Translations under genes and position numbers: made by a program
DNA from: Clostridium pasteurianum DSM 525 = ATCC 6013
GTDB lineage: Bacteria; Bacillota; Clostridia; Clostridiales; Clostridiaceae
Assembly (NCBI RefSeq): GCF_000807255.1
Contig: NZ_CP009268.1
Location: 2,758,384-2,822,383, forward strand
Reading direction: 5' to 3'
Length of the DNA: 64,000 nucleotides
Notes under the pieces: generated by a model
Told to the model about the DNA's origin: nothing
What the model saw: only the letters and a program-made list of their open reading frames with translations
Database searches by the model: none
In this document: in pieces, positions 1 through 16,603 of the stretch
How the letters are laid out: every line of letters starts with the position of its first letter
Position numbering within the stretch: the stretch's first letter is position 1

Positions 1-1
1 T

Positions 2-373
2 ATAACAAGAACTGTTAGTATTATTGTTATTTTAATAGGAATTTTAGGATTAACTATTGAATTAAATAAAATAATTGAAAAACATAAAATAATTGGATTT
101 GATGATTTTGGAGTAGGCTTAATATTAGTTATTATTACCCAATTATTACATTATTATTTTTTGTATATCTGGTTAAATGTACTTTTCTCCTTTATTTTAT
201 TATTAGGAATATTTGGACTAGTTAGAGGACTAATAACTATTATAGGTAATATGTCAATAAATAAACCTTCTATAAAAAACATGTTAATAAAAGCATTAAT
301 TATTATATCCCAAATAATAGCTTTTATAGCAGCTTTACTGCAATCTATGCAAATATTAAAAATAGTAAAATAG
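2..373 (+). CDS. Small polytopic membrane protein, 5' truncated by window edge
   Basis: The frame is open from base 2 to a TAG at 371-373, giving about 123 residues with no start inside the window other than internal TTG codons. The product is almost wholly hydrophobic, with about four predicted membrane segments separated by short charged loops. I recognise no family. A tail of about 70 residues could be called from the TTG at 161, but the coding frame clearly continues upstream. It may belong to the accessory element or to the flanking chromosome; the sequence does not decide. Confidence 0.5.
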   Translation: MTRTVSIIVILIGILGLTIELNKIIEKHKIIGFDDFGVGLILVIITQLLHYYFLYIWLNVLFSFILLLGIFGLVRGLITIIGNMSINKPSIKNMLIKALIIISQIIAFIAALLQSMQILKIVK

Positions 374-806
374 AATATCACGTGCACATGGCTTCAACTC
401 TAAAAATTATCTATCCAAGTGTCTAACGGAAACAAGTTTCCTACGACACTAAGGCAATCTAATATTTTACAGCCTTTGCCCCAAAAATTGCGAAAAGCAC
501 GCAATATTTTGTGTCAACAATATCATTTTTTGAACTTATTTATTAGCATGTATCACCTAGCAATTCAGTATAATTATAAAAGTTGTCCATCTTTCAGTTC
601 TCGTAAATATATTATAACATTAATTAATTGTATATTTATGATTTCTGAAACTTGGACAACTTTTTATATTGTGATTGAGAAAAATTAAAAATATTCCATA
701 ACTTGAATAACTTTTGCGTAGTGAAACGTAGCAAAATTATGAAAGTTAGCTTCGGGAAAGGTGCGGAAAACCCCCAAGGTACGGGGGGTTGTCTGCTATA
801 CTATTA
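374..806. other. Gene-free hairpin cluster
   Basis: No convincing gene lies here. Several inverted repeats follow each other: 418-450 (AGTGTC/GACACT enclosing GGAAAC/GTTTCC), 453-480 (GGCAA/TTGCC), 487-505 (ATTGCG/CGCAAT), about 578-665 (20-bp arms with two mismatches) and about 707-743 (AACTTTTGC paired with GCAAAA and AAAGTT). An open frame at 419-688 has no ribosome binding site and overlaps the palindromes, so I do not call it. Such clusters occur in single-strand or transfer origins, structured RNAs and transposon ends; which applies here is unknown. Confidence 0.5.
766..791 (-). terminator. GC-rich hairpin after the 807-1940 gene
   Basis: AACCCCC (769-775) and GGGGGGTT (783-790) form a strong stem just past the stop codon of the minus-strand gene. 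Read on the minus strand it is followed by TTTT and then GC-containing sequence, so it is a weak intrinsic terminator. Confidence 0.45.
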
Positions 807-1940
807 TTACTCTACTTCTTTAAATAAAAAATCAAAATCCTTTGCTAATTCTATATTCTCTTGATCTATTTGTTTTTGAGTTTTTATATTGCTTATGATA
901 TCTGTAATATTTAATGTATTATAACTTATTAATATCTTAATTAAACGTTCTATAGATTTACCATATTTCAATCCGATTCTTTTTCTATCCCATTCATTTT
1001 TAAATAATACAATACCGCCCCAATCATCTTTTAATTTCTCTATCTTTTTGCTAATAGAATCCATTACATTAGCAGCAAATAAAGTATTAAATTCTTTTTC
1101 TAATGCTTTAATATTCTCTTGTGCATTGCAATTTTCTACTGTAATTTTATATCCTTGATAATATCCATTTATTTCACTATCTACTTCTGCAAAATGATCT
1201 AATACTATTTTTTGTACTTTTTCATAAAATTTCTTTCTGATATTTATATTCCACATTTTTTGTGCATTAGTTATTTCCATCACTTGCATTTGTTCTTTTT
1301 CAACCTCTTTAATATATTTTGTTTCTTTATCTGTTGCACATCTCTGCTTATAATCATTTAAATAAAATATGTAAGATGCTTGTACAACAATCTTATTTGA
1401 CTTTTCTAATCTTGTTAATGAAGATATTATTGCAGGTCTTATATGAGCATATATACAAGTAAATATATCTTGTTCCGCTAAAGAGCTAGATAAATTCTTT
1501 TTATATAGATATCTATGAAATTTTTCCCTATTAGCATTGCAAGTCCTATAATTAAAATTAACCATTTTTACTAATTCTGCTATACAAACATTGGTTATGT
1601 AAACTATATTATCTTCTTTGATTTGTCTTTTTTGTATTATATTATATAATTTATTTTCTAATAATATATCTATATATTTACCATAAATACCTATATAATT
1701 ATTTCTACTACCTTCAGATTTACCACTATGCCCTTTTCTATTATCCACCTTTTCCTTTGGAATGCCATATATCTCATCAACAATAAATCCATTACCCTCT
1801 TTATGGTATCTAAAATATCTTGACCAATCTTTTAATTGTGCTATTTTTGCATTGCCTGTTTTGATTTCTTCCTCTAACGTAGTACATATTGCTCTATAAC
1901 TTTTATATTTAATATTTAATTCTAAATTTTGAATCTTCAT
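807..1940 (-). CDS. Uncharacterised element protein, 377 aa
   Basis: This is a complete ORF with a GGGAGA ribosome binding site ahead of ATG at 1940. It is Lys/Asn/Ile-rich and predicted mostly helical, with no signal peptide or membrane segment. A basic block around residues 60-80 (a PKEKVDNRKG-like stretch) and a Lys-rich middle would fit nucleic-acid binding. I do not recognise a family and assign no function. It lies 17 bp downstream of the small gene ending at 1958 and is probably co-transcribed with it. A replication or regulatory protein of the element is possible but this is inference. Confidence 0.6.
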   Translation of the reverse strand: MKIQNLELNIKYKSYRAICTTLEEEIKTGNAKIAQLKDWSRYFRYHKEGNGFIVDEIYGIPKEKVDNRKGHSGKSEGSRNNYIGIYGKYIDILLENKLYNIIQKRQIKEDNIVYITNVCIAELVKMVNFNYRTCNANREKFHRYLYKKNLSSSLAEQDIFTCIYAHIRPAIISSLTRLEKSNKIVVQASYIFYLNDYKQRCATDKETKYIKEVEKEQMQVMEITNAQKMWNINIRKKFYEKVQKIVLDHFAEVDSEINGYYQGYKITVENCNAQENIKALEKEFNTLFAANVMDSISKKIEKLKDDWGGIVLFKNEWDRKRIGLKYGKSIERLIKILISYNTLNITDIISNIKTQKQIDQENIELAKDFDFLFKEVE

Positions 1941-1957
1941 ATAATATTAATCTCCCA

Positions 1958-2155
1958 TTACATTTTTCTTAATTGATTTCTTAATTGATTTAATCCTGTT
2001 AATGCAATTCTAAATTTCTCATTATCTTCAAAACTATATACCGTCCCATCATCATTTGTAAATTTATAGAATTTGCACCCTAGAAAGTTTAGTGCATCTG
2101 CCATATATTTTTTGTTAACATGATAATATTTCTTTTTACTATTAGTTGTTTCCAT
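1958..2155 (-). CDS. Small element protein, 65 aa
   Basis: AGGAGG is followed after 8 bases by ATG at 2155; an in-frame ATG six bases upstream lies too close to the ribosome binding site, so the shorter start is preferred. The product is small, basic at both ends and soluble, with one Cys. No family is recognised. It is the first gene of a two-gene unit with the 807-1940 gene. The palindromes at 2184-2231 sit directly upstream. Confidence 0.55.
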   Translation of the reverse strand: METTNSKKKYYHVNKKYMADALNFLGCKFYKFTNDDGTVYSFEDNEKFRIALTGLNQLRNQLRKM

Positions 2156-2183
2156 AATCATTACCTCCTGAATTTTTTGATAG

Positions 2184-2231
2184 GTGCATCCATTATGTGC
2201 ACGCCATTAATTTTGTACTTACAAGTACAAA
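2184..2231. promoter_or_regulatory. Two palindromes, possible operators
   Basis: GTGCA (2184-2188) pairs with TGCAC (2198-2202). A perfect 9-bp inverted repeat, TTTGTACTT / AAGTACAAA, occupies 2212-2231 with a 2-bp centre. Both lie between the start-less ORF ending at 2249 and the ribosome binding site of the 1958-2155 gene. They have the geometry of dimeric repressor sites. The HTH protein at 12225 would be one candidate binder, by inference only. Confidence 0.4.
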
Positions 2232-2248
2232 TACTTTATTATTTTTAT

Positions 2249-2575
2249 CTAAATGTAAGTACAATTTTCATAAGTTAAAATATCAAATTCAATCTTAGAA
2301 ACTAATCTAATCCATGTTTTAATATCTTTTTTCCTTAAAGTTTTCATATCTTCATAATTTATATAATCTCTACTTTCTATATCCTCCTGATCTAGTTTTA
2401 ATATATAATCCTGTTTAGTCTTTACTTTCTTATCATTAGAATCTCTATAACTTATACAATTATAAAAATAATATGATAAATGTCCCCATTTTCTTGCTCT
2501 TTTTCTATATTTAATGTATATAATATTTACGTCCTTATTATTTTTGTTATAGGAGTATCCTTTTACAGATACCCC
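2249..2575 (-). pseudogene. Start-less 108-codon ORF, probably a gene remnant
   Basis: An open frame of 108 codons ends at TAG 2249-2251 and is bounded upstream by an in-frame stop at 2576-2578. Its composition is plainly protein-like (for example the run YRKRARKWGHLSYYF) and matches neighbouring genes in Lys/Tyr/Asn content. No ATG, GTG or TTG occurs near its 5' end, although AGGGGG lies there. It starts about 30 bp after the RNA-polymerase-like gene on the same strand. It is either a 5'-truncated remnant or a gene using a non-canonical start. Confidence 0.5.
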
Positions 2576-2606
2576 CTATGTACATATAGACTTTAACTTT
2601 ATTTAA

Positions 2607-5600
2607 CTATCTAAAATATTTAAATAAAGTTTTACACTTATTAATATCCTGTAAAACCTCATTGTCTTCTTCATCACATTCAATATTAATTTTAATCTTT
2701 AAAATAGTGCCATTTTTATTTGTATTTATTGTAATCATTTTATTATCATTTAATCTTTTCATTAATTTTTTGTATTTTCTATCATCAATCCTTGCTAAAA
2801 TTTGAATATTGCTTTTAGTAATTTTATTTTTTGAACTGGTTTCTATGCTGAATATTTCACTTTCTACTTCTTTTTTGTTATAAGTTTTACTGAATTGACT
2901 AATGACATATAAAACTGTTAATAATCTTTTTTCATCTATATCCTTAGTTAATTTCCTAATCTTCCTTATAACATTGGTATTAATTTTTACATCTAAATAT
3001 CCAGCAAAATCTTTTATGTATACTTTATTAGATTGCTCCTTTATTTTTCCAACTTTATTTTTAAGCTTTTCGGCTCTCTCTAGCTTTTTCTCAATTTCTT
3101 CTTCTGTATATTCTTTAGTCGGTCTTAATTTTTCCCCATGTAATCTAACATTTAATTCATTTCCAAATACATTCCAAAGTAGAGCTTTATCATCATTATG
3201 TTTTATGAATTCTTTATTTTCATAGAAAATATAAATTACATAATCTAGCAACTTGTCCTTAGTGAGTTTTAAATTCTTATTGAGTAATAAATTTATTAAT
3301 TCAGTTCTCACGTGGTTGTAGAAGATTGTCCATTTATAGCTATGTTCCTGCTCTGTATCATCGTTATTACAATCCTTTGATTTATTTTCTATAGAATTCT
3401 TTTGTGATATTTCATTACTATCTTTTATAAAATTAAACATCATTTCTTCTATTAATTTATAAGATTTACTACTTCTAATATTTATTTTTTTGTTATCATA
3501 CAAATCCGTAAATTTAAATTCTATATCTTCAGTAATATATAGTTTTATAGGTTTAATTTGTTGTTCCATATAATCGTATAATCTATTCATAGTGCAATCA
3601 TTGTTATTAAATAATCTAACTTTTTCTTTTCCAAGTATTTTATTATTATTATTTATTTCTCTTTCTGTCTTCACATTACTTTTATATATGACTCTTTGAA
3701 ATTTTGGTTTTTTTATTCCATCTACGAGCACTTTTATTTCTTTTGGTATATCAGCTTTAACTCCATGTTTAACATAATCTATTGTCTTAGAACCAACAAT
3801 TGACATGATTTTAATGCAATCCATTGCCGTTAAACCGTCATCATTAATCTCTTTATTTTTATCTTCTATACTCCATAAAGTGGTAATACAATTTACTACC
3901 TTACCAATATCATTAGACATTCCTCGTACATCACAATCAATTATTTCTTTCATATCATCTATACTTTTAGATTCTATTTCTTTTGCATTAGAATCAACAT
4001 AATCAATATTGTAAATTGTATTTGCTTTTTGATTTCTAGCATTTTTACATATAATAGCATTACTGGTTGATGCAACTTCATCTCCATCATAATCAGCACT
4101 ATTAGCTTTTAAGGCTAATGAATCATAGATTGAAGTCACAATTCCTTCAGTACTATACTGATACCAGTCAAACTTCTTTGGAGTTACTACTTTCAATAAA
4201 TTATGTTCATTGGCTATATGAGGATATCTTATAACATCTATTTCTGATTTATCTTTTTTAATCCAATAATTACTATATACTTCATGTTTATTTAATCCCC
4301 CCTTAATATCCAATCCAAAAGAATGCTCTGCCAGTGCCAAAACATCAGGTACTAAAGTTTGAAAATTACCATTAATCCATATGCAACCTTTAAGTGTATT
4401 CTCTTTAAATCTTTTCAAGTCTTCTTTTACTTTAGATTGAATAAAACTATCATTAAACAAACTTTTATTTTTTGCTAATGATTTATAATAAGGAGGTATT
4501 TTATAAGTATTATTCTCTTCATTAATGCCTCTAAATTGTAAAAATTCATCAACATTTGTAGAGATATTACTTATAAAATCTACAGTTGTTTTACATATTT
4601 TTTCAATATCAATTTGACTAATATCTAAACTTTGAAGTGGTTGATATGATAATAGAATCTTATCTTTTAATTCTTCACATTTTGGAGAGACTCTGGATAT
4701 ATTAAATGTTTTTTTATATCCATATAGTTCTCTATTGAAATTTTCCTTCCATGTATCAAAAGCTTTCTTCTCCCCAAATAATTCCTTATACTGCTTAAAA
4801 AATTTAAATTGACTTTTAGTAATTATACAATTAATTCCTTCTTTTAATACATTATGTTTATTTCCGAAAGCATCCTTCACAATTGGAGTAACACCTTCTT
4901 GTTCTGCAAAAGATTTAATATCAAATGTAAATAAATTACCCTTAATTCCTGGTATTGCTCTGAACTGAAAACTTGCTGGTACATAGTCTAATTCCAATTC
5001 ATTATGCCATTGTTTCGCAAGTGAAATATCAACTAATCCACCCCCGTCAAATGGCAAAATTGATATTTTTCTTTTTTGGTTATTCTTTACTTTATAAATG
5101 TCTTTAGCAGTTTCTTCTACTATATCAAAGTATTCTTCAATTTCATGTTCATAGTCATCCACAACAATAAAACTAGGAGTTGTAACCGGTATACTATCTG
5201 TATTTACTAAAGCATAGTAACTATTAAATTTACTAAACACTGGATGCTTCATATCTTTAGGTAAACCACATAATAATATTTCATTTGCTTTATTCCATAA
5301 ATCTTGCTTAATGTATATAACCTTTTTATTTCTAATATTTCCGCTAGAAGATAGAAGTCTTTTAAATACTATTGTTTTATCTATAACATCCTTTATATTC
5401 TTAGAATACATTTTTATATTATTAATCTTATTTTTACTTTTGATATTATGTAATTTCTTCTTACTAATATGTTGAGGTTTAGTAATTATTATCTTAATTA
5501 AACTATTTTTATCTTTTATAATAGTTTTATATGTACCCACGTTCACGGAAAAAGCAATTAAATCTTTTATATATTTATATCCTTCTAATTCCTCTATGTT

Positions 5601-5777
5601 ATTACTTAATGCATTGGCAATTCTTATAGTATCTGTTTCTCTTATAAGTGTTAAGTTCTTTGTCAAATCCGATTCTTTAATATATATTACATTTTCCTTT
5701 TTACCATCTTTATTATCTTCCTCAAATACATTTTTTAAATTTAATTTTAGTAACTTATACAATTTTTTATCTTTCAT
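2607..5777 (-). CDS. Single-chain DPBB RNA polymerase (YonO / RdRP-like)
   Basis: This 1056-residue protein carries both hallmarks of the two-double-psi-beta-barrel polymerases. At about residues 244-247 is DGGG, followed at 267-280 by PASFQFRAIPGIKG, which matches the (F/Y)Q(I/F)R..G.KG block of barrel 1 in eukaryotic RdRPs and phage YonO. At about 562-566 is DYDGD, the metal-binding DxDGD loop of barrel 2, with a preceding RYPHI..E segment near 517-524. The N-terminal ~230 residues and C-terminal ~450 residues are unassigned; the last ~100 look like a winged helix. Known relatives are the DNA-dependent polymerase YonO of phage SPbeta, crAss-like phage polymerases and QDE-1-type RdRPs. Template preference cannot be read from sequence. 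It lies directly downstream of the J-domain fragment on the same strand. Confidence 0.85.
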   Translation of the reverse strand: MKDKKLYKLLKLNLKNVFEEDNKDGKKENVIYIKESDLTKNLTLIRETDTIRIANALSNNIEELEGYKYIKDLIAFSVNVGTYKTIIKDKNSLIKIIITKPQHISKKKLHNIKSKNKINNIKMYSKNIKDVIDKTIVFKRLLSSSGNIRNKKVIYIKQDLWNKANEILLCGLPKDMKHPVFSKFNSYYALVNTDSIPVTTPSFIVVDDYEHEIEEYFDIVEETAKDIYKVKNNQKRKISILPFDGGGLVDISLAKQWHNELELDYVPASFQFRAIPGIKGNLFTFDIKSFAEQEGVTPIVKDAFGNKHNVLKEGINCIITKSQFKFFKQYKELFGEKKAFDTWKENFNRELYGYKKTFNISRVSPKCEELKDKILLSYQPLQSLDISQIDIEKICKTTVDFISNISTNVDEFLQFRGINEENNTYKIPPYYKSLAKNKSLFNDSFIQSKVKEDLKRFKENTLKGCIWINGNFQTLVPDVLALAEHSFGLDIKGGLNKHEVYSNYWIKKDKSEIDVIRYPHIANEHNLLKVVTPKKFDWYQYSTEGIVTSIYDSLALKANSADYDGDEVASTSNAIICKNARNQKANTIYNIDYVDSNAKEIESKSIDDMKEIIDCDVRGMSNDIGKVVNCITTLWSIEDKNKEINDDGLTAMDCIKIMSIVGSKTIDYVKHGVKADIPKEIKVLVDGIKKPKFQRVIYKSNVKTEREINNNNKILGKEKVRLFNNNDCTMNRLYDYMEQQIKPIKLYITEDIEFKFTDLYDNKKINIRSSKSYKLIEEMMFNFIKDSNEISQKNSIENKSKDCNNDDTEQEHSYKWTIFYNHVRTELINLLLNKNLKLTKDKLLDYVIYIFYENKEFIKHNDDKALLWNVFGNELNVRLHGEKLRPTKEYTEEEIEKKLERAEKLKNKVGKIKEQSNKVYIKDFAGYLDVKINTNVIRKIRKLTKDIDEKRLLTVLYVISQFSKTYNKKEVESEIFSIETSSKNKITKSNIQILARIDDRKYKKLMKRLNDNKMITINTNKNGTILKIKINIECDEEDNEVLQDINKCKTLFKYFR

Positions 5778-5805
5778 ATAATAATCCCCCTATATTTAAT
5801 TAGCT

Positions 5806-6005
5806 TTAACCTTTTATTTTTAAATTTATAGCATTTAATAATTTCATTTGCTCTTCAGCTCTTTTAACAGCACCTTCTCCATTTTTAGCTACCTTATCAG
5901 GATGAAACTCCATTGCTGCCATAAGATATAATTTTTTAGCTATTTTTTCATTTACCAGTATCTCCTTTAATAATTTTTGTTCAGCTTCTGTAAATATTTC
6001 CTCTC
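5806..6005 (-). pseudogene. J-domain fragment truncated by the IS element
   Basis: The last 65 codons of a J-domain protein end at TAA 5806-5808. The fragment has helix II (KKLYLMAAMEF), the diagnostic HPDK motif and helix III (AEEQMKLLNAINLKIKG). The 5' end is cut exactly at the left terminus of the IS3 element at 6006, so helix I and everything before it is missing. J-domains stimulate DnaK-type chaperones. It sits 28 bp upstream of the polymerase gene. The missing part may be the 3' end of the DUF3102 gene on the other side of the IS, or may have been deleted. Confidence 0.75.
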
Positions 6006-6045
6006 TGACCCCATAATAACCTTCGACAAAATCTAACGAGCATGG
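6006..6045 (+). repeat. IS3 left terminal inverted repeat
   Basis: It reads TGACCCC, then a variable stretch, then CGACAAAATCTAACGA. It pairs imperfectly with the complement of 7262-7299. Confidence 0.75.
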
Positions 6046-6077
6046 TAGTATAAAAATACACAGTGGAGGTTAGAACT

Positions 6078-6371
6078 ATGGGAAGAAGAAAGTATACTTT
6101 AGAGGAAAAAATTAAAATAGTTGAAGAATTAAATAAAGGGTTAACTAATGCACAAATATGCAAAAAATATGAAATTACATCATCAACATTATCTACATTT
6201 AAGAAGCAACTTAATGTAATTAATGCAACAGAGCCAAAGGATAAAAAGGCTACGCCTAAAGAAAAAGCTCTAGAAGAAGAAAACCGTAAACTTAAAGAGC
6301 TTATTGGCAAAAAAGAGCTAGAACTTGATATGCTTCAAGAATTATTAAAAAAAAAGAATTACCTACGTTAG
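6078..6371 (+). CDS. IS3 transposase OrfA (HTH protein)
   Basis: ATG at 6078 follows GGAGG at 6065-6069; a GTG 15 bases upstream overlaps that site and is rejected. The 97-residue protein has the HTH_Tnp_1/IS3 type N-terminal helix-turn-helix (RRKYTLEEKIKIVEEL, then ICKKYEITSSTLSTFKKQ) and a C-terminal Leu/Lys/Glu-rich coiled coil. The A9G run at 6347-6356 near its end is a classical -1 frameshift site that produces the OrfAB transposase. Confidence 0.9.
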   Translation: MGRRKYTLEEKIKIVEELNKGLTNAQICKKYEITSSTLSTFKKQLNVINATEPKDKKATPKEKALEEENRKLKELIGKKELELDMLQELLKKKNYLR

Positions 6372-7261
6372 AAGATAAAAAGACTCTTGGAATAAAATAT
6401 ACTGGAAAGGGACTTAAGATCTCTAGAGCATGTAGGCTATTACAAATATCAAGAACATCATTTTACCCAAGGAAAAAACTTGTTGTGGATAAAAAATCAT
6501 CAATAAGAAATGTCGGTAGACCAATACCTGGTTTTTCATATGGAATAAACAACTGCATTGTTGATGACTCTGTTATTGAAACTCTTTTACATGAGGCATG
6601 TGAAAAATATCCATTCTATGGCTATAAAAAAGTAACTTGTATACTCCGTAGGAGTCATGGACTTCAACTTAATGCCAAAAAAGTATATAGATTAGCTAAA
6701 AAGCTAGGATTGCTTCTTCCATATGTAAAACACACTAAGCAAGGACATCTTGCTATCGCAAGAGATGTAAAAGCTATAAATAAATTATGGCAAATTGATA
6801 TAAAGTATGTAAAAGCTTTAAATGGACAGTTTATAATGCTTACTGATATTATTGACGTTTATTCTAGAAAATTAGTTGGTAGAGAAATTACACCAACTGC
6901 TACCACAGAAGATGCAAAAACAGCTGTAAAAAGAGCACTTATAGAGAATAATGTTACTTCAAATATAGTTTTAAGAAGCGATAATGGTCCCCAGTTTACA
7001 TCTGTAAAATTTGAACAATTCTGCAAAACAAATAATATATATCATGAGCTTATCCCAACAAGCTCACCTAACTATAATGCACATATAGAGTCCTTTCATT
7101 CCTTACTTTCTAAGGAGTGCATTAGTTGGAATGAGATTAGGAACTTTACTCACGGGTATATGCTTATTGATGAGTATATAGAGTTCTATAATGAAGAAAG
7201 AATTCATGGAAGCTTAAATTATTTAAGTCCAAATGAGTTTATAAGAAAATCTATAATATAG
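6350..7261 (+). CDS. IS3 transposase OrfB, DDE integrase core (-1 frame)
   Basis: The frame is open from the A9G slip site and continues through an in-frame GTG at 6485 to TAG at 7261, so it is best read as the OrfAB fusion. An HTH_21-like region (EKYPFYGYKKVT) precedes the retroviral integrase core: first Asp in WQIDIKYV, second in LRSDNGPQF, Glu in HIESFHSLL. All three catalytic residues are present. The C-terminal YNEERIHGSL..LSPNEF motif is typical of IS3 OrfB. No internal stop or frameshift is seen. Confidence 0.9.
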   Translation, partial: KKELPTLEDKKTLGIKYTGKGLKISRACRLLQISRTSFYPRKKLVVDKKSSIRNVGRPIPGFSYGINNCIVDDSVIETLLHEACEKYPFYGYKKVTCILRRSHGLQLNAKKVYRLAKKLGLLLPYVKHTKQGHLAIARDVKAINKLWQIDIKYVKALNGQFIMLTDIIDVYSRKLVGREITPTATTEDAKTAVKRALIENNVTSNIVLRSDNGPQFTSVKFEQFCKTNNIYHELIPTSSPNYNAHIESFHSLLSKECISWNEIRNFTHGYMLIDEYIEFYNEERIHGSLNYLSPNEFIRKSII

Positions 7262-7299
7262 TTAGCATTCGTTAGCTTTTGTTGAAAATAAAGGGGTCA
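7262..7299 (-). repeat. IS3 right terminal inverted repeat
   Basis: On the minus strand it reads TGACCCC, spacer, then CAACAAAAGCTAACGA, matching the left end. Its outermost TGA doubles as the stop codon of the adjacent DUF3102 gene. Confidence 0.75.
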
Positions 7300-8802
7300 A
7301 TCCGTTTCTAAACTATTATTTGTTTTCTTCTCTCCGAAAAAGTTATAATTTTTATAGAAATCCTCATAATTTTTTTCTTGCTTTCTTTGTGCTTCTTCTA
7401 TTTCTTCTTTAACCTTTTTAGCTTTTGTTTTAAGTTCTTTATGAAAATTAATTAAGTATTTAGGTTGAAAATCTAGTTTATCTTTTATAACATCTAACCA
7501 ATTATTAGTTATTATAGTATTATAAAACTCTAAATTTTCTAAGCACATTCCTACATCAAAAATATAATAGGTTAATTCCTTTTTATGCTTATATACTTTT
7601 ATACAATCCCTATTAGTTGCATAAGAAATCAGCATATAACACTCATTGTCTTTCTCAAAAATAAATTTAGCAGTTTCTTTAGCTCTATTAAATCTTTCTA
7701 TTAATTCTTCATAATCATCTTTTTGTTGTTGTTTAATAAATTTATCTACTAGCTTTAGATATCTTTTATTAATCCTATAGAATCTAAATAATTCAGTAAT
7801 ATTATAAAGATACCTATGGTAATTAGATGTAACTGGGTAATGTGCAAATAATTCTTTATCCTTGTAGATACATATATATGCATTTGTATCTATATATCCT
7901 TTGGCTATTGTGATATTATTTTCATTAAATATATATTTATTATCTTCAATATAACTTTGCCTTTCTTCTTCATTTTTTTCCCAAATAAACTCACAAACAT
8001 TTTCATACGATAAATCAATATTTTCTAATGCATTATAGTATTTATCACCATTTTCCGATATATGTTGATAGCTATTCCATAAATCTAAACTATCAAGGAA
8101 TTTTTTAAATTTATCCTCATTATAGATAAAAGGTATATCCATTTTGCGAATTTTAATAACTTTTTCTAATTGATTATGATTAATTTCTTTATTTAAATAC
8201 CTTGTTAAAATAAGACTCTCAACACTATCTAATTCTAAATCTCCATTATTATCAAAATCAAAACTTCCAGTTAAAAATTCAATATTACACTTTAATCTAG
8301 CAGTATCCTCCCATATTTTATCAGCTTCATAATAATCATCCATAAGATAGTTATCATTTTCTATAAGTTTATTTACATTAACATCACACTTTACATCTTT
8401 AGGTTCTATAAGCTTTTTATTTGACTTTTTAATCTCCTTAATAGCTTGTTTAAGTTCTCTAGTAGACATATTTTCTATATCATTATTATTTATAAATATC
8501 TCTCTATCTTCTTCAGATAAATTAGTTAATAAATATAATTTTTCTGAACTTAAAAGTGAAGGCGACTTCGTTTTTTCAAAAGTTTTTGCTACTTTCATAA
8601 ACTTTTGTGCTGTCCTTGGAGTATAATCTACTTTTTCTTCTAGCCACAATTTAAATTCCCCATGATTTAAGGATTGTTTAATCTTGCTTAGTCTTTTACC
8701 TATTTCAATAATATTTTGTGCAGTTTGTTGTTTTAGTTCTAATATCTCTTTTGTAATTTCATCTATTTCATTGATTTTATCCAATTGATTTATAATGCTC
8801 AC
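7297..8802 (-). CDS. DUF3102-type protein, 3' end replaced by IS
   Basis: The N-terminal ~130 residues match DUF3102: an initial helical region (TAQNIIEIGKRLSKIKQSL), then HGEFKLWLEEKVDYTPRTAQKFMKVA, found in plasmid and phage proteins and thought to bind DNA. Residues 130-501 are unassigned, acidic and Tyr/Asn-rich. The stop TGA at 7297-7299 is the first codon-equivalent of the IS3 terminal repeat, so the natural C-terminus is lost or altered. The annotated start is GTG at 8802 immediately after AGAGG, closer than usual, so the start is uncertain. The J-domain remnant across the IS is on the same strand. Confidence 0.7.
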   Translation of the reverse strand: MSIINQLDKINEIDEITKEILELKQQTAQNIIEIGKRLSKIKQSLNHGEFKLWLEEKVDYTPRTAQKFMKVAKTFEKTKSPSLLSSEKLYLLTNLSEEDREIFINNNDIENMSTRELKQAIKEIKKSNKKLIEPKDVKCDVNVNKLIENDNYLMDDYYEADKIWEDTARLKCNIEFLTGSFDFDNNGDLELDSVESLILTRYLNKEINHNQLEKVIKIRKMDIPFIYNEDKFKKFLDSLDLWNSYQHISENGDKYYNALENIDLSYENVCEFIWEKNEEERQSYIEDNKYIFNENNITIAKGYIDTNAYICIYKDKELFAHYPVTSNYHRYLYNITELFRFYRINKRYLKLVDKFIKQQQKDDYEELIERFNRAKETAKFIFEKDNECYMLISYATNRDCIKVYKHKKELTYYIFDVGMCLENLEFYNTIITNNWLDVIKDKLDFQPKYLINFHKELKTKAKKVKEEIEEAQRKQEKNYEDFYKNYNFFGEKKTNNSLETD

Positions 8803-8887
8803 CCTCTTATCTACTTAATAATTCATATTATGCTACAAGTTTATATAATAAGGATAGGCAGTTACTGACTACCCTTATATATATTAG

Positions 8888-9460
8888 TTAAATAGTTTCA
8901 TCACTTTCATCTTCTTCAAATGTATAAGATTTAATATTAGAATTTCTTTTAACTCCATCCAGCCATTTATCTTCATTATAAATTGTCAGCTCTCCCTCAT
9001 ACGGTTCAAAAGTCTCTACTTTTTTATAAGTATAAATACCAATACTATTGCATTTTTCCAATTTATATATACCTTCTTTTGTAACAACCATGTATTTACT
9101 ATCAAACTTTTTCAGGAAATTATTAATATTATTTCTTTGTAAAATTTCTAATACATCAATACTTGTTAGTTCTTTATCCTCTTTTCTTTCTTTATAAAAA
9201 CCTACATTATTATCATCTGACCAATATAAATATCTTAAATTGTTAATATTATCACCTTTACTTTCTATAGAATTCACGGTATCCACAACATTATAATAAG
9301 GATGCTCTGGGTTTCCTTTAATTTTGTAATGTTCTCCTGTATTCTTATTAATTACAATAGAATCATTTTCGTTATCCACAGTTACTTCCTGTAAATCACT
9401 GGTATGTACAATCACCTTTCCATTAATTTTGTCTCCATCTATTAATACATATTTATCCAT
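8888..9460 (-). CDS. Uncharacterised element protein, 190 aa
   Basis: AGGAGG lies 9 bases before ATG at 9460. The protein is soluble and acidic, with an N-terminal half rich in beta-type, Val/Asp/Asn-containing stretches and no membrane segment. No family is recognised. It is the third gene of a minus-strand run (9817-10233, 9503-9763, 8888-9460, 7297-8802), all with strong ribosome binding sites and probably one operon. Confidence 0.55.
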   Translation of the reverse strand: MDKYVLIDGDKINGKVIVHTSDLQEVTVDNENDSIVINKNTGEHYKIKGNPEHPYYNVVDTVNSIESKGDNINNLRYLYWSDDNNVGFYKERKEDKELTSIDVLEILQRNNINNFLKKFDSKYMVVTKEGIYKLEKCNSIGIYTYKKVETFEPYEGELTIYNEDKWLDGVKRNSNIKSYTFEEDESDETI

Positions 9461-9502
9461 TTGAAATATCCTCCTATTTTATTCAAAATTATATTATTTC
9501 AA

Positions 9503-9763
9503 TTACTCTATCCATCCACACTTTTCACATTTATGTCCATAAATCATTGGTTGTAATTCTTCTGGTGCATTTGTATCCATAAATGGCATTGCTTTCTTCC
9601 CACATTTAGGACATATAATTGAATATTGTTCTTCTTGTTCTTTTTGTTCCTCCATTGCCCATTCTTCTTCGGATTCCATTAAATCTTTAATTTGTTGTTT
9701 AATTTCTTCTTCTGTACAACCTTCTTTTCTCATAACCTTTTTTAGTTCATCATAATTTAACAT
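9503..9763 (-). CDS. Small zinc-ribbon protein, 86 aa
   Basis: AGGAGG precedes ATG at 9763. Residues 1-45 are strongly acidic and helical (many Glu and Gln). The C-terminal part holds two CxxC pairs, CPKCGKKAMP and CEKCGWIE, separated by about 25 residues, the pattern of a zinc ribbon. A nucleic-acid or protein adaptor role would fit but is inference. It sits between two uncharacterised genes in the same operon. Confidence 0.65.
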   Translation of the reverse strand: MLNYDELKKVMRKEGCTEEEIKQQIKDLMESEEEWAMEEQKEQEEQYSIICPKCGKKAMPFMDTNAPEELQPMIYGHKCEKCGWIE

Positions 9764-9816
9764 ATTAATTTTCCTCCTAAATTTTATTTTTATATATTTA
9801 TAAAATCATTGCTGAT

Positions 9817-10233
9817 TTATATGCTTTTTAATAAGCTTGTCTTGTTTATCTGTTTAAGTAATAAATCAATAATTTTCATATAAGTCTCTGTTATATTTTC
9901 CTCATTATATTTATATAAATAAAATTTTGTATCTCTTATTTCTGGTGTTTGATATATTACCTTTAATGCAACTCTTAAACTATGGTTATCATGTTTCATC
10001 TGTACCCAGGTATTGTCTGAATTACATGACTTATCACCAATTACATCCATTTCATAACCATAAGAAAATTTTTGAACTATCACATATGATGACCCTTCTT
10101 TAACTGATAAAATAATTAAATTACCTTGTTCAATTTTATTAATTAATAAATCAATATTTTCTTTTTGAAAATTATTTAAAATAATTCCGTTTCCTAAGTT
10201 AATATCATTTTTAATAAAAATTTTCTTTTTCAT
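9817..10233 (-). CDS. Uncharacterised element protein, 138 aa
   Basis: GAGGA precedes ATG at 10233. It is a soluble protein of mixed beta/helix character without recognisable motifs. It is the first gene of the minus-strand run reaching to 7297. The three iteron-like repeats at 10299-10364 lie about 65 bp upstream and could form part of its control region. Confidence 0.5.
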   Translation of the reverse strand: MKKKIFIKNDINLGNGIILNNFQKENIDLLINKIEQGNLIILSVKEGSSYVIVQKFSYGYEMDVIGDKSCNSDNTWVQMKHDNHSLRVALKVIYQTPEIRDTKFYLYKYNEENITETYMKIIDLLLKQINKTSLLKSI

Positions 10234-10298
10234 AATTTATTTTTCCTCACTTTCATTCTGCGTTTTTGGGTCGCCACCTTATATTTTTTATGTTAATT

Positions 10299-10364
10299 CT
10301 GAAATATCAGTATAAAAGTCCTAAAATATTGGTATAAAAGCACTAAAATATCAGTATAAAAATG
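10299..10364. repeat. Three tandem 22-bp iteron-like repeats
   Basis: Copies start at 10299, 10321 and 10343 with no spacing; each reads close to CTAAAATATCAGTATAAAAGTC with one to four differences. A period of 22 bp is two helical turns and is typical of plasmid initiator iterons or of cooperative repressor arrays. They sit upstream of the minus-strand operon starting at 10233 and beside the orphan plus-strand promoter at 10478. Confidence 0.7.
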
Positions 10365-10477
10365 TACTTTTTTTGTATAAAATATTTGTTTTTGGGGTAG
10401 GTCTAATCTTTGAAGCCCTTGGTATCAGCCAGTTTAGAGCTATGTGTTCATAATATTTTATTATAGACGGTTGCCCA

Positions 10478-10506
10478 TTGACTTCCAATTTGTATAATGA
10501 TATAAT
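10478..10506 (+). promoter_or_regulatory. Orphan near-consensus sigma-A promoter
   Basis: TTGACT (10478-10483), a 17-bp spacer and TATAAT (10501-10506). No plus-strand gene follows for 1.7 kb, so it would drive a non-coding transcript starting near 10513. Confidence 0.6.
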
Positions 10507-10512
10507 TACAGT

Positions 10513-10650
10513 ACAGTTTAAAGAAACACCATCAAATACATAATAATAAATTAAAAAGTTAAATATTCATCGTGAATGTATAGAAGTTAATTAAATTGGT
10601 AATAATATTAATACTGTTAGAAGGTTATTGGAGTAACCCTCTATTATGAG
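10513..10650 (+). ncRNA. Candidate small RNA next to iterons
   Basis: The stretch after the orphan promoter has no ORF with a ribosome binding site and ends near an imperfect hairpin at 10619-10642 (AGAAGGTTA / TAACCCTCT). The hairpin has no clear T tract, so the end is uncertain. A short RNA beside iterons would fit a copy-control or antisense regulator. This is inference from promoter and hairpin only. Confidence 0.3.
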
Positions 10651-10855
10651 TATTAACTTTATATGAACTTTTTGTATCGACTTCTCAAGTATATGTTATT
10701 TTTTTGAATATGTCAAGATTTAAGTATAGATTTTTTTAATAATTTTCTATATTCTTTTTGTGTTATAATTAAATTTGTATTTAGCCAATGATTTTATTTC
10801 AAAGATCAAAGAAAATCAATAATATTTTCAATCTCTACTCTACTTATAATTCGTA

Positions 10856-11089
10856 TTAACATGCATCCTCACTTAAATTAAATTCTGCGTCCTTTGCTAA
10901 ATTGAATCGGGTTTTTGTTACTTCTTTAAGAATTTCCTTGTCGTCTTTTAAGTATCCCAGTATTTCCAAACAATCTATTGAGTTTAAGAAGTTTTCCCAT
11001 GTATTTTCTGTTGCACATGCAAAATAAGTATATAATCTGTACCATTTTTTAACTTCTGGTGAATCATCATCAGTTACATATAGCATCAT
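10856..11089 (-). CDS. Small element protein, 77 aa
   Basis: The frame can be opened to an ATG at 11134, but AGGAGG lies just upstream of two successive ATGs at 11089 and 11086, so the shorter start is chosen. Upstream lies another good ribosome binding site with a four-codon frame (ATG ATA AAA AAA TAA), a possible leader micro-ORF. The protein has aromatic-rich helices (WYRLYTYFACATENTW) and no recognised domain. Confidence 0.5.
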   Translation of the reverse strand: MMLYVTDDDSPEVKKWYRLYTYFACATENTWENFLNSIDCLEILGYLKDDKEILKEVTKTRFNLAKDAEFNLSEDAC

Positions 11090-11159
11090 ATTAAATAACC
11101 TCCTGTATAATTTGTATTTTTCTTTTGATTTCATGTTGTTATTTTTTTATCATTTTATT

Positions 11160-11690
11160 ATTCCTCCTAAAAAATTTAATATTTATATTAATTAATCTGC
11201 TACTATATAACATTTTAATTAAAAACACGAATAAAAAAGAGCCAATGTGATTAAGAATGATTTAACAATACTAATTAGGTTTAAAAATTCAATATATTAT
11301 TCAACATTATTGGTTTATATACAAATAATACTTATAAATATTCTAATCGTACCCAAATAGACTTTATATAATATTATAAACATATAATATAAAAAGCTTA
11401 TAAGTGTAAATTAAATATCATTCAATTAAAGTTATTAAGTATTATAAATGTATGTAATCCTATTATAAAATAAAATCTTAACAATAATGTAAAATATCAA
11501 CTTAAATTCTTAAATCTAATTGCGTGTTAAATACCTTCTTGTATCACCGACTCCTCTTGGTTTAATTTATAACATTTTATGCAATTTTCTTTAAGTGCCA
11601 TATCTTGGCTACGTAAATTATTTTATCATCTTACATTATAGCTTGTCAATATTTATTTTATAATTTTTTCATATTTTTATATTTTTTACT
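11160..11690. other. AT-rich gene-free stretch
   Basis: About 530 bp of very AT-rich sequence lies between two minus-strand genes. I see no gene with a ribosome binding site. The only short frame of note is a 24-codon ORF at 11527-11601 (minus) with a CxxC pair but no ribosome binding site. No repeats or convincing promoter were identified. Confidence 0.4.
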
Positions 11691-11697
11691 CTATCAC

Positions 11698-12039
11698 CTA
11701 CTCTTCCATAATAAATCTGTACATGATATTATGTTTGAGAATTAATATATAACTACCTTCAAAGAACCCAACACCCATAATAATCTTTTTAATGTCTTTC
11801 ATATCTACAAGTACGGAACATATTTGTTCAGTTAAATCATCTAATATTAAAACTCTTTTATTACTATGCTTGTACTCATCTATATACCAACCAAAATCTT
11901 CAAAAGTAAGTTGTGTATTAACTATCCCGTGAATATCTAGTGTAACAGTTTTTTCTGATACTTCATTTAAATACAATTCAAATTCTTGGAAACCAACCTC
12001 AAAACCAAATTCTTTAATATTGCCATCTTTTAAAAACAT
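11698..12039 (-). CDS. Uncharacterised element protein, 113 aa
   Basis: AAGGGGA precedes ATG at 12039. The protein is soluble and mildly acidic, with alternating hydrophobic beta-type segments. No family is recognised. It has its own promoter (12095-12123) arranged back to back with that of the HTH regulator, so it is probably part of the regulatory switch region of the element. Confidence 0.55.
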   Translation of the reverse strand: MFLKDGNIKEFGFEVGFQEFELYLNEVSEKTVTLDIHGIVNTQLTFEDFGWYIDEYKHSNKRVLILDDLTEQICSVLVDMKDIKKIIMGVGFFEGSYILILKHNIMYRFIMEE

Positions 12040-12094
12040 ATTTTCTATTCCCCTTAATATTTTATTTATCAGTTAATTCATCTCCTATACATAT

Positions 12095-12123
12095 ATAATA
12101 TCACTCCTAACGTGACAAGTCAA
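12095..12123 (-). promoter_or_regulatory. Promoter of the 11698-12039 gene
   Basis: On the minus strand: TTGACT, 17-bp spacer, TATTAT (positions 12123 down to 12095). It is divergent to the promoter at 12154. Confidence 0.65.
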
Positions 12124-12153
12124 TAACTCTTAAGAACATTTTTTAACTTTCAC

Positions 12154-12182
12154 TTGACTTTTATATACATAAAAGGTATAAT
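12154..12182 (+). promoter_or_regulatory. Promoter of the HTH/MerR regulator pair
   Basis: TTGACT (12154-12159), 17-bp spacer, TATAAT (12177-12182). It faces away from the promoter at 12095-12123, giving a compact divergent switch. Confidence 0.7.
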
Positions 12183-12224
12183 TTAACCTATAAAGTAGTA
12201 ATGCATATTAAGGAGCGAACTATT

Positions 12225-12464
12225 ATGATAAAATTTTACATATCAGATTTGTTGGGTAAATTTAAAAAGAGCCAACGATGGTTAGCAGATGAAACAGGAA
12301 TCCGACCTTCAACAATTGGTCTCTACTATAGTGAAAATATTAAGAGAATTAATTCAGAAGACTTAAATGCAATTGTCAAGGCTTTTAAGGCACTTGATAG
12401 TAATATAAAATTAAGTGATGTTATAGATTATATTGATGATGAAAGCTCTTCTATTACAAAATAA
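12225..12464 (+). CDS. XRE-type helix-turn-helix regulator, 79 aa
   Basis: AGGAG at 12211-12215 selects ATG at 12225 over the in-frame ATG at 12201. The protein is essentially one HTH domain: SQRWLADETGIRPSTIGLYYS is the helix-turn-helix, followed by a short helical tail (LNAIVKAFKAL). This is the form of small Cro/CI-type repressors of phages and plasmids. It is the first gene after the plus-strand promoter and 18 bp ahead of the MerR-like gene. It may repress the divergent promoters around it. Confidence 0.75.
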   Translation: MIKFYISDLLGKFKKSQRWLADETGIRPSTIGLYYSENIKRINSEDLNAIVKAFKALDSNIKLSDVIDYIDDESSSITK

Positions 12465-12482
12465 AAATTTTGGAGGTTATAC

Positions 12483-13133
12483 ATGGAAACTATATATTAT
12501 TCAACAACCGAAGTAGCAAAAATGCTGGGAGAATTAGATAGCACAATTCGATTTTGGTGTACAAAATTTAAAGATTTTATTCCAATTAAAAGGCAAGGTA
12601 GTCATAGACGGTTTAAAGAAGAAGATATAAATACTTTAAAACAGATTCAAAAATTACTTAGAATAAATCATTTTACCATTTATCAAGTATACGAGCATTT
12701 AAAAAAACAGACTATAGATGATGGTATGGATAGATTGAAAGAGAATGACCCTATTTTTATAAAATTATTATCAAAAGAATTATCAAAAGAATTGTCAAAA
12801 CATTTAAATGAAGAATTGGAATTAATAGAAAAAGAACTTAAAAATCTTATGGATGAAAATTATAAAAAAATCACAAATATTATGAATGAAAATTATAAAA
12901 ATTTAAAATTAGAATCTAAGGAATTTAACTCTGAAATAAAAAAAATTATTGAAGAAAAATTAGATATTGCACTAAAAAAATATTCGGAACCAATTCTTGA
13001 GCAATTAAAAATAGAACAAGAAAAAAACAAACAATTGACAAATATATTACTAGAACTATATAAAACCCCATTAAAGCAAAATGATTTTATTTTTAAAAAG
13101 ACTTTGAAAAAAAATTTATCCGATATGTTTTAG
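12483..13133 (+). CDS. MerR-type DNA-binding protein with long coiled coil
   Basis: GGAGG lies before ATG at 12483. Residues 1-70 form a MerR winged helix: YYSTTEVAKMLGELDSTIRFWC, then GSHRRFKEEDINTLKQIQKLL. Residues ~90-190 are Lys/Glu/Leu-rich with near-repeats such as SKELSKELSKHLNEEL and two MxENYKK units, predicted as a long coiled coil. There are no effector-binding Cys residues. The architecture resembles RacA-like or plasmid-associated MerR proteins rather than metal sensors. A role in segregation or element control is plausible inference. Confidence 0.7.
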   Translation: METIYYSTTEVAKMLGELDSTIRFWCTKFKDFIPIKRQGSHRRFKEEDINTLKQIQKLLRINHFTIYQVYEHLKKQTIDDGMDRLKENDPIFIKLLSKELSKELSKHLNEELELIEKELKNLMDENYKKITNIMNENYKNLKLESKEFNSEIKKIIEEKLDIALKKYSEPILEQLKIEQEKNKQLTNILLELYKTPLKQNDFIFKKTLKKNLSDMF

Positions 13134-13143
13134 TATTTACTTA

Positions 13144-13370
13144 CGACATTACCTTGTAATAAATCACATCGGCATAAATTGAATCTTTTTATATAACATT
13201 ATATTCTACTAGCCAAAATCCTTATAATCATTGATATATCTAGAATTGCAAGTGTTATAATATTATTTTTTAATAAATTTTGTATTTATTATTTTAAATT
13301 AGATATCGAAAGTAAAGTAGAATTTAATCACTATGTATCGTAACTAAAGCAGAATTACAAGGTATTGTCG
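13144..13370. repeat. 227-bp unit bounded by 17-bp inverted repeats
   Basis: CGACATTACCTTGTAAT at 13144-13160 is matched by ATTACAAGGTATTGTCG at 13354-13370, with 16 of 17 positions complementary. The inner 193 bp has no ORF. It resembles a miniature inverted-repeat element or two facing binding sites. No target duplication is seen in the flanks. Confidence 0.5.
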
Positions 13371-13521
13371 GCTGCATAATTATAATATTCAATAAATGAC
13401 GTTGTATTTTAATTTCTCATAAGTGATCAAAAAGCTTATGCTTACAGCCATTTTATTAAATTATTTTATAAAATAGTCCTGTTTTTGTTATGCTTATCAA
13501 TATATTATTGTGTAAATAATG

Positions 13522-13530
13522 TGATATAAT
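13522..13530 (+). promoter_or_regulatory. Extended -10 promoter element
   Basis: TGATATAAT has a TG one base before a perfect TATAAT. No good -35 is present at the proper distance. It lies 27 bp before the start of the next gene. Confidence 0.45.
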
Positions 13531-13556
13531 TACATACAGAATGGAGGTTGAATTTA

Positions 13557-14042
13557 ATGTTTGAAGATTTATATGATACCGTAAAAAAAGAACTGCTTAT
13601 ACAAAAAGATATGAATGGTGTATCTAAAGTATACAGAAATTATGAATATAGCCGATATTTTCACATATACACTTATAAATACTTTTCAAAGAACCCTAAA
13701 AAGAAAGATCAAAAATTAGATTATAATAATTACTATAGAGAGATAAGAAATAAGTCAAATATAGATACATTGTCAAATAATTTTAATACTACTTACAATA
13801 CTTATTTAAACATTAGTGAAGATGATAAATTATATGATTCAAACATAGAAGATTTAGAAATGATTATTGCTAAATATGAAATTGCCGTCGGTAAAATTAT
13901 ATGTTTAAGTGAGCAAATCAAAGAGTATAACTGCTCAAAAGATGATGTAATCGAATATATGAAAATTAGAGATTTAATGTATGAAAACGTTAATTCTATT
14001 AAACATAAAACTGTAGAGTATCGTAGAATGATGTGGGATTAG
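13557..14042 (+). CDS. Uncharacterised element protein, 161 aa
   Basis: GGAGG at 13543-13547 sits nine bases before ATG at 13557; an in-frame TTG at 13548 directly abuts that site and is rejected. The protein is Tyr/Asn/Lys-rich, soluble and helical in its second half. No family is recognised. It is a single plus-strand gene convergent with the 14267-14569 gene, with a 17-bp perfect hairpin between them. Confidence 0.55.
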   Translation: MFEDLYDTVKKELLIQKDMNGVSKVYRNYEYSRYFHIYTYKYFSKNPKKKDQKLDYNNYYREIRNKSNIDTLSNNFNTTYNTYLNISEDDKLYDSNIEDLEMIIAKYEIAVGKIICLSEQIKEYNCSKDDVIEYMKIRDLMYENVNSIKHKTVEYRRMMWD

Positions 14043-14204
14043 AATTTATAGATAATAATATACAAAATATTTTCTAAAGGTACATCCAATAAAACAAATA
14101 TTTTCCAGTACCCAAATTAATCATCGATAATTGATTTGAAAACTCTTTTTCTACTTTCTTTTATAAATCTTTTACTGTCTGCTGTTTGTAGATTTTCTAA
14201 TTCT

Positions 14205-14249
14205 AATTAAAATACTGTATTGTTTAACTAGTAATACAGTATTTTAATT
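14205..14249. terminator. Bidirectional terminator, perfect 17-bp stem
   Basis: AATTAAAATACTGTATT (14205-14221) and its exact complement (14233-14249) enclose an 11-base loop. It lies between convergent genes and has A/T runs on both sides. Confidence 0.7.
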
Positions 14250-14266
14250 AAACACTTAATATATAA

Positions 14267-14569
14267 TTACAAATATGGATTCATTATTTGAGTGTTCCCT
14301 GTTTTTTCATACCTTTTCCATGCCTCATTAGCCCATTTCATCACTAAATCATCTAATAATTTCTCATCCTTTGATGCTTCAATTCCTACATAATCACTTC
14401 CTGCATCAAATGTTTCCCATCTAGTAACGTAATCTAAATGTTCTACCGCACCTCCCCCTGCTCCTTGAAAAAGAATAAAATTGCCATCTCTGTTAAGAAG
14501 CAAAATATTATCTACATTATCATTACCATTTGCTATTACTTGTCTTAGTTGCTCTTTATCTGGTTGCAT
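14267..14569 (-). CDS. Uncharacterised element protein, 100 aa
   Basis: GGGAGG precedes ATG at 14569; the frame also opens to a TTG at 14584 that contains the ribosome binding site, so the ATG is used. The protein has a Gly-rich turn (FQGAGGGAVEH) and a C-terminal amphipathic helix (LLDDLVMKWANEAWKRY). No family is recognised. Confidence 0.55.
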   Translation of the reverse strand: MQPDKEQLRQVIANGNDNVDNILLLNRDGNFILFQGAGGGAVEHLDYVTRWETFDAGSDYVGIEASKDEKLLDDLVMKWANEAWKRYEKTGNTQIMNPYL

Positions 14570-14584
14570 ATTAATCCCTCCCAA

Positions 14585-15235
14585 TAATTTATAATATATA
14601 AAAATAATATATTAATATAATCTTATCTTATTTTGAATAAAATTCATACTTCTTTTGATTCATCTCTTGCCCTATTGAACTTAATCTCTTATAGTTGGGA
14701 AATGTCTGTGTTCTGAGTGGATATAGTTTATCTACCTATACAAGCAAAAAAGAAAAAATCTTAATTACTTATATAAGTAGATAAACTATTAATCTATAGT
14801 TGGTTAAAGCCTTGTGACGTCGCTAATACCCTTCTTATTTATTGCTACTGCAATATTAACTTAACTTATAATACTTGTCCTATAAGTACCTATATGGCTT
14901 GTTAATACCTACCTGATACTATATCACCAAGTAACCTGCCCGAACCTTTAATGGTAGTCCGCACCTTGCATTACACCACTAAAGAAGGGAATAGTGTTTT
15001 ATGTGTAATAGTTGATTTATTTGCAGCGGCTCAACTAACCTACTGGATATTTTTATAGTTATTCCAGTGCTTAGATAACTGACCTATCACCCTAAAAAAA
15101 GGCAATAGGAAATTAGACCTTGACCAAATCCCATTTTTTTGATAAAATCAAGGTACGGTAATTGGAATTGGTAAGGTTTCATTTAAACTATATTCAATTT
15201 TTTATGAGATAAGTCAGTGTGGTCTAGGCACTGGC
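14585..15235. other. 650-bp gene-free region, locally GC-richer and structured
   Basis: No ORF with a ribosome binding site is seen. A 21-bp imperfect inverted repeat (14724-14744 / 14768-14788, 19 of 21) opens the region. From about 14800 to 15130 base composition is visibly richer in G+C than the flanks, and several hairpins can be drawn on the minus strand, for example CTGGA.TA/TATCCAG, AGTTGA/TCAACT and GTGATA/TATCA. A promoter-like TTGACC-N17-TAAAAT lies on the plus strand at 15120-15148, and a hairpin AGTCAGTG/CACTGGCT at 15211-15236. A structured RNA or a transfer/replication origin is possible. Confidence 0.4.
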
Positions 15236-15481
15236 TTATTCTATTTGCTTACATAATTTCTTTAGTTGATTTTCAAAAACTAATACATGGTTAATACTTT
15301 CATTTTTTATAGGCTTGTCTATATCCCCTACTGCTGTAAAAATATCGAACATATTTTTATTTTTAGCAACTATATAAATGGTTACAAATAAATCACTAAC
15401 ATTTACTTCTTTAAATACAATCTGTTTTGGATCTATTAATGCATCTTTATAAAATTGGTCTAAAAATTTATATTCACTCAT
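15236..15481 (-). CDS. Small element protein, 81 aa
   Basis: AGAGGTGA lies before ATG at 15481. The protein is small and soluble with a hydrophobic beta-type centre (DLFVTIYIVAKNKNMFDIF). No family is recognised. It follows the recombinase gene by 24 bp and is probably co-transcribed with it. A directionality factor would be possible by position, but no winged-helix signature is visible. Confidence 0.5.
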   Translation of the reverse strand: MSEYKFLDQFYKDALIDPKQIVFKEVNVSDLFVTIYIVAKNKNMFDIFTAVGDIDKPIKNESINHVLVFENQLKKLCKQIE

Positions 15482-15505
15482 TTATAAATCACCTCTTATT
15501 AATTT

Positions 15506-16462: not shown

Positions 16463-16508
16463 TTTATACACCTCCTCACACGTATAGATGGGAGTAGCTT
16501 TTTATGTA

Positions 16509-16561: not shown

Positions 16562-16603
16562 AAAATAGTCTATTCTAGTTAATCAAAGCCTTCATCAATG
16601 GAT

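Follow-up and report, generated by a model that had tools for sequence, protein, structure and literature searches.

What is a complete RNA polymerase, carried on a single polypeptide, doing in the chromosome of Clostridium pasteurianum, and which genes would it serve? The question is posed by a stretch of 64,000 nucleotides (the window, positions 2758384-2822383 of a closed 4.35-Mb genome), near the left end of which lies an ATG-initiated frame of 1056 codons, present once in the genome (Table 1). An earlier note had taken the product for an RNA polymerase with two barrels in a single chain, akin to YonO and QDE-1, with PASFQFRAIPGIKG and DYDGD as the signatures of its barrels, and this observation is confirmed. 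No Pfam family matches the protein above cut-off, and its PHROGs matches, phrog_8308 (E 6.8e-87) and phrog_25339 (9.1e-42), are both annotated 'unknown function'. By tblastn it matches 35 phage records and four Bacillus plasmid records; yonO of SPBc2, among the phage records, is 28.6% identical (E 5e-30). The predicted structure is confident and holds both barrels in one chain, as in the YonO-like enzymes. Among solved structures QDE-1 and RDR2 match it best and have the same catalytic fold, and the first-barrel motif could be aligned with its RDR2 counterpart. How well are the catalytic residues kept? In a viral-contig scan a single-sequence query found no relative, whereas an alignment query brought up 395, and 80 of these were retained. 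Of the 117 loci gathered, 82 were taken further, 35 being omitted by hand (mostly lower-ranked, short or near-duplicate). All three aspartates of the metal-binding triad are present in 65 of 65 polymerases, YonO included, and so are the basic residues R273 and K279 of the partner barrel; G280 is kept in 64 of the 65. Across a 58-row alignment (57 loci and the window polymerase itself) 28 columns are invariant. The core of the protein, about residues 1-880, is the two-barrel catalytic body.

Table 1. Features of the window (positions within the window)
Feature	Position	Strand	Evidence
Window part of a 30.4-kb prophage; the remainder extends 13.7 kb leftward	1..16603		att repeats, prophage genes
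377-aa protein of unknown function, phrog_36702; relatives in G129, G174 and, partly, Geobacillus virus E3	807..1940	-	profile and BLAST
67-aa protein, weak DUF5659 resemblance; adjoins the 377-aa gene in G129 and G174 too	1958..2161	-	Pfam, synteny
YonO-family single-chain RNA polymerase, 1056 aa	2607..5777	-	sequence, profile, fold and conservation
Winged-helix-like C-terminal domain (residues 925-1056), a homologue of the middle portion of the separate partner protein (phrog_30716)	2610..3005	-	profile and structure comparison
Second-barrel DYDGD (residues 562-566) with the metal-binding triad D562, D564 and D566	4080..4094	-	conservation
PASFQFRAIPGIKG, residues 267-280, first barrel, including R273 and K279	4938..4979	-	conservation; RDR2 counterpart aligned
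J-domain-like fragment (HPDK) rather than a complete gene; it stops at the IS edge	5806..6005	-	sequence inspection
IS-like insertion, TGACCCC...GGGGTCA ends, ORFs 6063-6371 and 6485-7261 (+)	6006..7299		terminal repeats, ORFs
DUF3102 protein	7297..8802	-	PF11300 E 9.4e-24
Cro/C1-type HTH protein, phage-repressor-like; relative in G129	12201..12464	+	Pfam
MerR-type HTH protein; G110 and G010 have relatives no more than 7 kb away from their polymerases	12483..13133	+	Pfam
Tyrosine integrase, right prophage end	15506..16471	-	PF00589 E 1.2e-26; relatives in G129, G132, G144, G174, G148
att repeat formed by the sdaAA 3' end; G000 2744577-2744691 (L002 6194-6308), left of the window, is a copy with 99% identity	16604..16718		115-bp repeat

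In what kind of element does the gene reside? The earlier note saw a small mobile element devoid of phage structural genes, with iterons and a J-domain gene beside the polymerase; this picture has to be abandoned, as the window cuts through a prophage. The left copy of the att repeat lies 13.7 kb left of the window, and the prophage spans 2744692-2775101, or 30,410 bp including one att repeat. Inside the left repeat, within 14 kb of the window, are a tape-measure gene in two halves (L002 14664-17000 and 9367-11421, the latter with an SLT domain, E 8.2e-13) and a scaffold remnant reduced to 60 aa (L002 17078-17260). The halves are parted by an insertion encoding a DDE transposase and an AAA-type protein; its three genes (L002 11650-14505) stand in a row and code for a cysteine-rich protein, the transposase (rve, Mu C-terminal) and a protein that by eye resembles an AAA ATPase. 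A search of the element's ORFs found nothing related to the capsid, terminase and portal proteins of G129, G144 and G148, three genomes with a prophage that encodes a related polymerase. What is left is the decayed prophage of a phage that was tailed and temperate, and because no capsid, terminase or portal gene was detected in it, the polymerase is probably an orphan in this genome. Near the left prophage end there is also a Doc-like toxin (L002 8605-9221, phrog_577, E 5e-35), adjoined by a small gene that looks antitoxin-like by eye. As to the sdaAA site in other genomes, a 46-kb element occupies it in G148, a congener, and G149 has a second, diverged copy of the site nearby, while G146 and G147 have one copy. 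In the present genome the region leading up to the left att (G000 2742727-2744577, L002 4344-6194) carries a partial, 90% copy of the sdaAA 3' end at 2742727-2742820, 1.85 kb further out than that repeat; it looks as though an earlier element had integrated here and since dwindled to a remnant.

The immediate neighbours of the polymerase have fared no better. An IS-like insertion, presumably IS3-type, separates it from the DUF3102 gene, which is probably truncated, since its reading frame stops right at the IS edge. The same insertion severs the J-domain-like sequence, of which a fragment at 5806..6005 is left, so that a J-domain partner gene can be set aside; Pfam finds no J-domain in the 15 window ORFs searched, all outside the insertion. 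As for an iteron-type replication origin, nothing but three 22-bp repeats at 10299-10361 was conspicuous. The 377-aa neighbour was tried as a conserved partner and rejected: single-linkage clustering places it in 61 of 121 loci, but direct BLAST finds relatives in only seven other loci, for which reason we do not claim it as a partner. Could the polymerase gene be a relic as well, its frame open and its protein no longer made or useful? The insertion directly upstream, with the J-domain fragment that it left, would fit such a fate, and so would the split tape measure, the shortened scaffold and the head genes not found in the element, but the frame is full length, the model confident and the invariant columns intact in this very copy. 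We regard a relic as rather doubtful, and it would be compatible with the explanation preferred below.

What does the polymerase accompany in relatives that are less decayed? Within the host's bacterial family, 12 of 206 genomes match it, the window's own included, and full-length close relatives occur in three others, G144, G129 and G132. In G129 and G144 one strand carries a tyrosine integrase, an actin-like gene (ALP_N) with a small partner, the polymerase, and then scaffold, major capsid, tape measure, terminase and portal genes, which also speaks against an element without phage genes. The G129 prophage is present in IMG/VR as the 41-kb contig L057, nine reference genes being 100% identical in one half, and on another contig (L061) polymerase, scaffold, capsid and terminase are consecutive. 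G132, a contig of Clostridium ragsdalei P11 (L137), has the integrase, actin-like gene, polymerase and tape measure in common with these two, and its 80-kb stretch (L024, L025, L034, L035) shows no scaffold, capsid, terminase or portal of the G129 type; this element may be a remnant too. The head module is missing in two of the four close relatives (the window's element and that of G132), through decay or for some other reason. The 46-kb prophage of G148 encodes a polymerase of 1005 aa with 23% identity (phrog_8308, E 2.5e-87), followed by a different head set (Terminase_3, portal PF04860, S78 protease, PF05065 capsid). The position of the polymerase is thus constant, whichever head module follows it. 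This polymerase (L174 2088-5102) is very divergent, on a long branch, with KT in place of KG, DFDSD in place of DxDGD and no tail. In SPBc2, yonO is likewise followed on the same strand by terminase, portal and virion genes. The actin-like gene (L022 17864-19644; L020 16052-17805) and its small partner stand directly upstream of the polymerase, and the G144 protein is 73-74% identical to those of G129 and G132; we take the two to be a plasmid-type partition pair, here in integrating prophages. No relative was found in the window's prophage remnant. A simple repeat search for a late-promoter motif gave no recurrent intergenic word in G129, G132 and G144.

What, then, is the function of the part of the chain beyond the core? 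An answer is suggested by a gene that other family members have and this one lacks. In 33 of the 74 loci with a polymerase ORF of at least 780 aa, a gene for more than 180 aa begins between -40 and +60 nt from the polymerase stop codon, most of these genes overlapping the stop. Their products are about 250 aa long, and four of eight scanned members match phrog_30716; a CxxC pair in 61 of 78 partner-profile hits shorter than 500 aa points to a zinc-ribbon-like C-terminus. All 33 coupled genes went into the partner profile, among them L079 and L088, which have no BLAST link to the family and whose membership is therefore partly circular. The C-terminal domain of the window polymerase is homologous to this coupled protein. 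Compared with the coupled-partner family by hhalign, the tail profile gives a probability of 96.7% (E 4.3e-10, 110 columns). When it was set against 46 neighbour families of at least five members, the coupled-partner family alone matched (96%, against 2% for the runner-up), and 50 copies with shuffled columns gave probabilities of at most 0.2%. HMMER, with the tail profile against 2432 ORFs at E 0.05, retrieves 40 proteins, namely 12 extended-clade polymerases and 28 small proteins, and 27 of the latter belong to the coupled-partner family (best E 1.8e-6). The reverse search, with the partner profile as query, recovers the L062/L063 (2e-12) and L058/L059 (7e-7) tails but, at E 0.01, misses those of the window, G129, L060, L061 and G144. 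We call the domain a relative of the phrog_30716-type protein and do not count it as a member of that family. Enterocloster phage PMBT24 offers a clear case of the separate form, its 240-aa gene overlapping the polymerase gene by 8 nt and being found by both profiles (partner 9e-29, tail 4.3e-5); the partner of TR-TP1 is found by the tail profile (E 2.4e-4). Extended-clade loci that were examined have no separate partner gene, except for one weak hit in G144 (E 0.001). Our literature searches found no paper describing a coupled partner of YonO-like polymerases. Among 391 genomes of the class and 398 of the phylum the profile of the winged-helix domain has a strong match in the window's own genome only, the other matches being six (class) and two (phylum) at E about 1e-4 to 1e-3. 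A second winged-helix-tail protein, a 740-aa open frame (E 1.5e-31), was seen in a Desulfosporosinus MAG (L181; G207 C310:8451-8810), so two such genes may occur per assembly.

How are the fused and the separate forms distributed? A tree of 65 polymerase cores (699 columns, tails excluded, quick method, unrooted, with SH-aLRT as sole support) yields three architectures, whose labels agree with its clades. Ten winged-helix-fused sequences, none with a CxxC pair in its last 95 residues, are grouped with a support of 100 and joined (96) to a 23-row clade holding SPbeta YonO. That clade has a CxxC...CxxC terminal segment in 20 of the 23 rows, its zinc-ribbon label meaning this pattern plus profile matches. 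In SPbeta YonO itself (L176 3620-6139) residues 784-837 form the zinc-ribbon-like segment, a match to the C-terminal end of the separate partners (domain E 3.4e-5, whole-protein E 0.11). The main text of PMC5467207 uses neither 'zinc' nor 'C-terminal'. The third, split clade (30 rows, support 98) is coupled in 26 rows by the strict rule and in 29 once ORF starts are corrected: L089, L095 and L108 pass after an over-long start is mended, and L103 fails. Among its representatives at 60% identity, 18 of 19 are coupled. TR-TP1, which is coupled, and G148 are on long branches and their placement is unsure. Since the tree is unrooted, it does not settle whether fusion or fission came first.

Taken together, the window gene probably encodes a phage-specific, DNA-dependent RNA polymerase of a decayed tailed temperate prophage, with a C-terminal module that is related to the stop-coupled partner and may have a role at promoters. 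In the intact phage the enzyme would transcribe the head and tail (late) genes downstream of it, a role that YonO has in SPbeta; the earlier note was right to suggest that the element's own genes could be its targets. The module, about residues 925-1056, most likely contacts DNA, and our best guess is that it would help to find or open the late promoter. Computation establishes the family, the fold, the catalytic residues, the prophage setting, the order of genes in the relatives, the coupled gene and its homology with the domain. From the fused and split pattern, the stop-codon coupling and the fold we infer contact between the partners, DNA binding and promoter choice; DNA-templated synthesis by this copy and its late-gene role are likewise put forward as probable. 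Is this a more general principle? We tentatively propose that many YonO-like 'single-subunit' polymerases in fact have two parts, a chain that does the catalysis and a specificity module of its own (winged helix and zinc ribbon) which would allow sigma-independent promoter recognition: supplied in trans and coupled by the stop codon in one clade, with the winged helix fused in the window's clade and the zinc ribbon fused in the SPbeta clade. What chiefly speaks against such a rule in general is that the SPbeta clade manages without the winged helix. Domain and coupled protein might also be real partners with another job, such as closing the clamp, processivity, termination, or anchoring the enzyme to the virion or to phage DNA during replication. 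This we consider unlikely; the structural neighbours of the domain include several winged-helix proteins that act as transcription factors or serve as polymerase subunits, a weak pointer towards promoters. That the enzyme is the RNA-templated polymerase of a silencing-like conflict system, the other role raised in the earlier note, is very improbable: its best solved matches are eukaryotic silencing polymerases and several phage records name homologues 'RNA-dependent RNA polymerase', but we saw no test behind these labels, QDE-1 structures with DNA templates exist (by their titles), YonO is reported to be DNA-dependent (PMC5467207), relatives in phage genomes adjoin late genes, and ten window proteins of the element, the polymerase among them, have no PADLOC match at E 0.01. 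The earlier account stands for the class of enzyme and its possible self-transcription and fails for the nature of the element; its RNA-templated or conflict reading finds no support. If the module works as proposed, some polymerases that are among the simplest known relations of the cellular enzyme would recognise promoters independently of sigma, which would bear on how the ancestors of multi-subunit polymerases found start sites without sigma factors. It would also suggest a function for phrog_30716 and phrog_8308, both listed as unknown. With a candidate partner at hand, joined to the polymerase in one clade and coupled to its stop codon in another, the question of the YonO promoter becomes directly testable with small proteins.

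How does the window polymerase compare with known systems? YonO of SPbeta/SPBc2 (phage record, 134 kb) is also a single-chain two-barrel RNA polymerase with the same triad, encoded upstream of late genes on the same strand, but it has 839 aa, ends in a zinc-ribbon-like segment, has no winged-helix domain and belongs to another polymerase clade. Without YonO, 37 SPbeta genes are reported to be silent, structural and lysis genes among them (PMC5467207), where a D-to-N change in the triad served as control, and the late-gene role is repeated in a review of SPbeta (PMC8270828). Forrest et al. leave open the promoter of YonO and the need for other factors (PMC5467207). QDE-1 and RDR2 are 13-16% identical to the window polymerase over aligned residues and belong to eukaryotic silencing, whereas the present enzyme is in a prophage, where no such context was seen. 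The non-virion polymerases of PhiKZ and AR9 are comparable as phage polymerases with an extra, non-catalytic accessory subunit dedicated to them, but they are multi-subunit enzymes with split beta/beta' polypeptides. PMBT24 and similar phages, whose enzymes are annotated 'RNA-dependent RNA polymerase', belong to the same superfamily, and in PMBT24 the polymerase stands ahead of terminase and portal genes, as in the window's relatives; they differ in that the winged-helix module is a separate protein. Related as well are the elements of C. ragsdalei P11, G129/L057 and G144, with polymerases 38-55% identical by segment, the same C-terminal domain, and an integrase and tape measure related to those of the window element; G129 and G144 retain the scaffold, capsid, terminase and portal that C. 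ragsdalei P11 and the window element lack.
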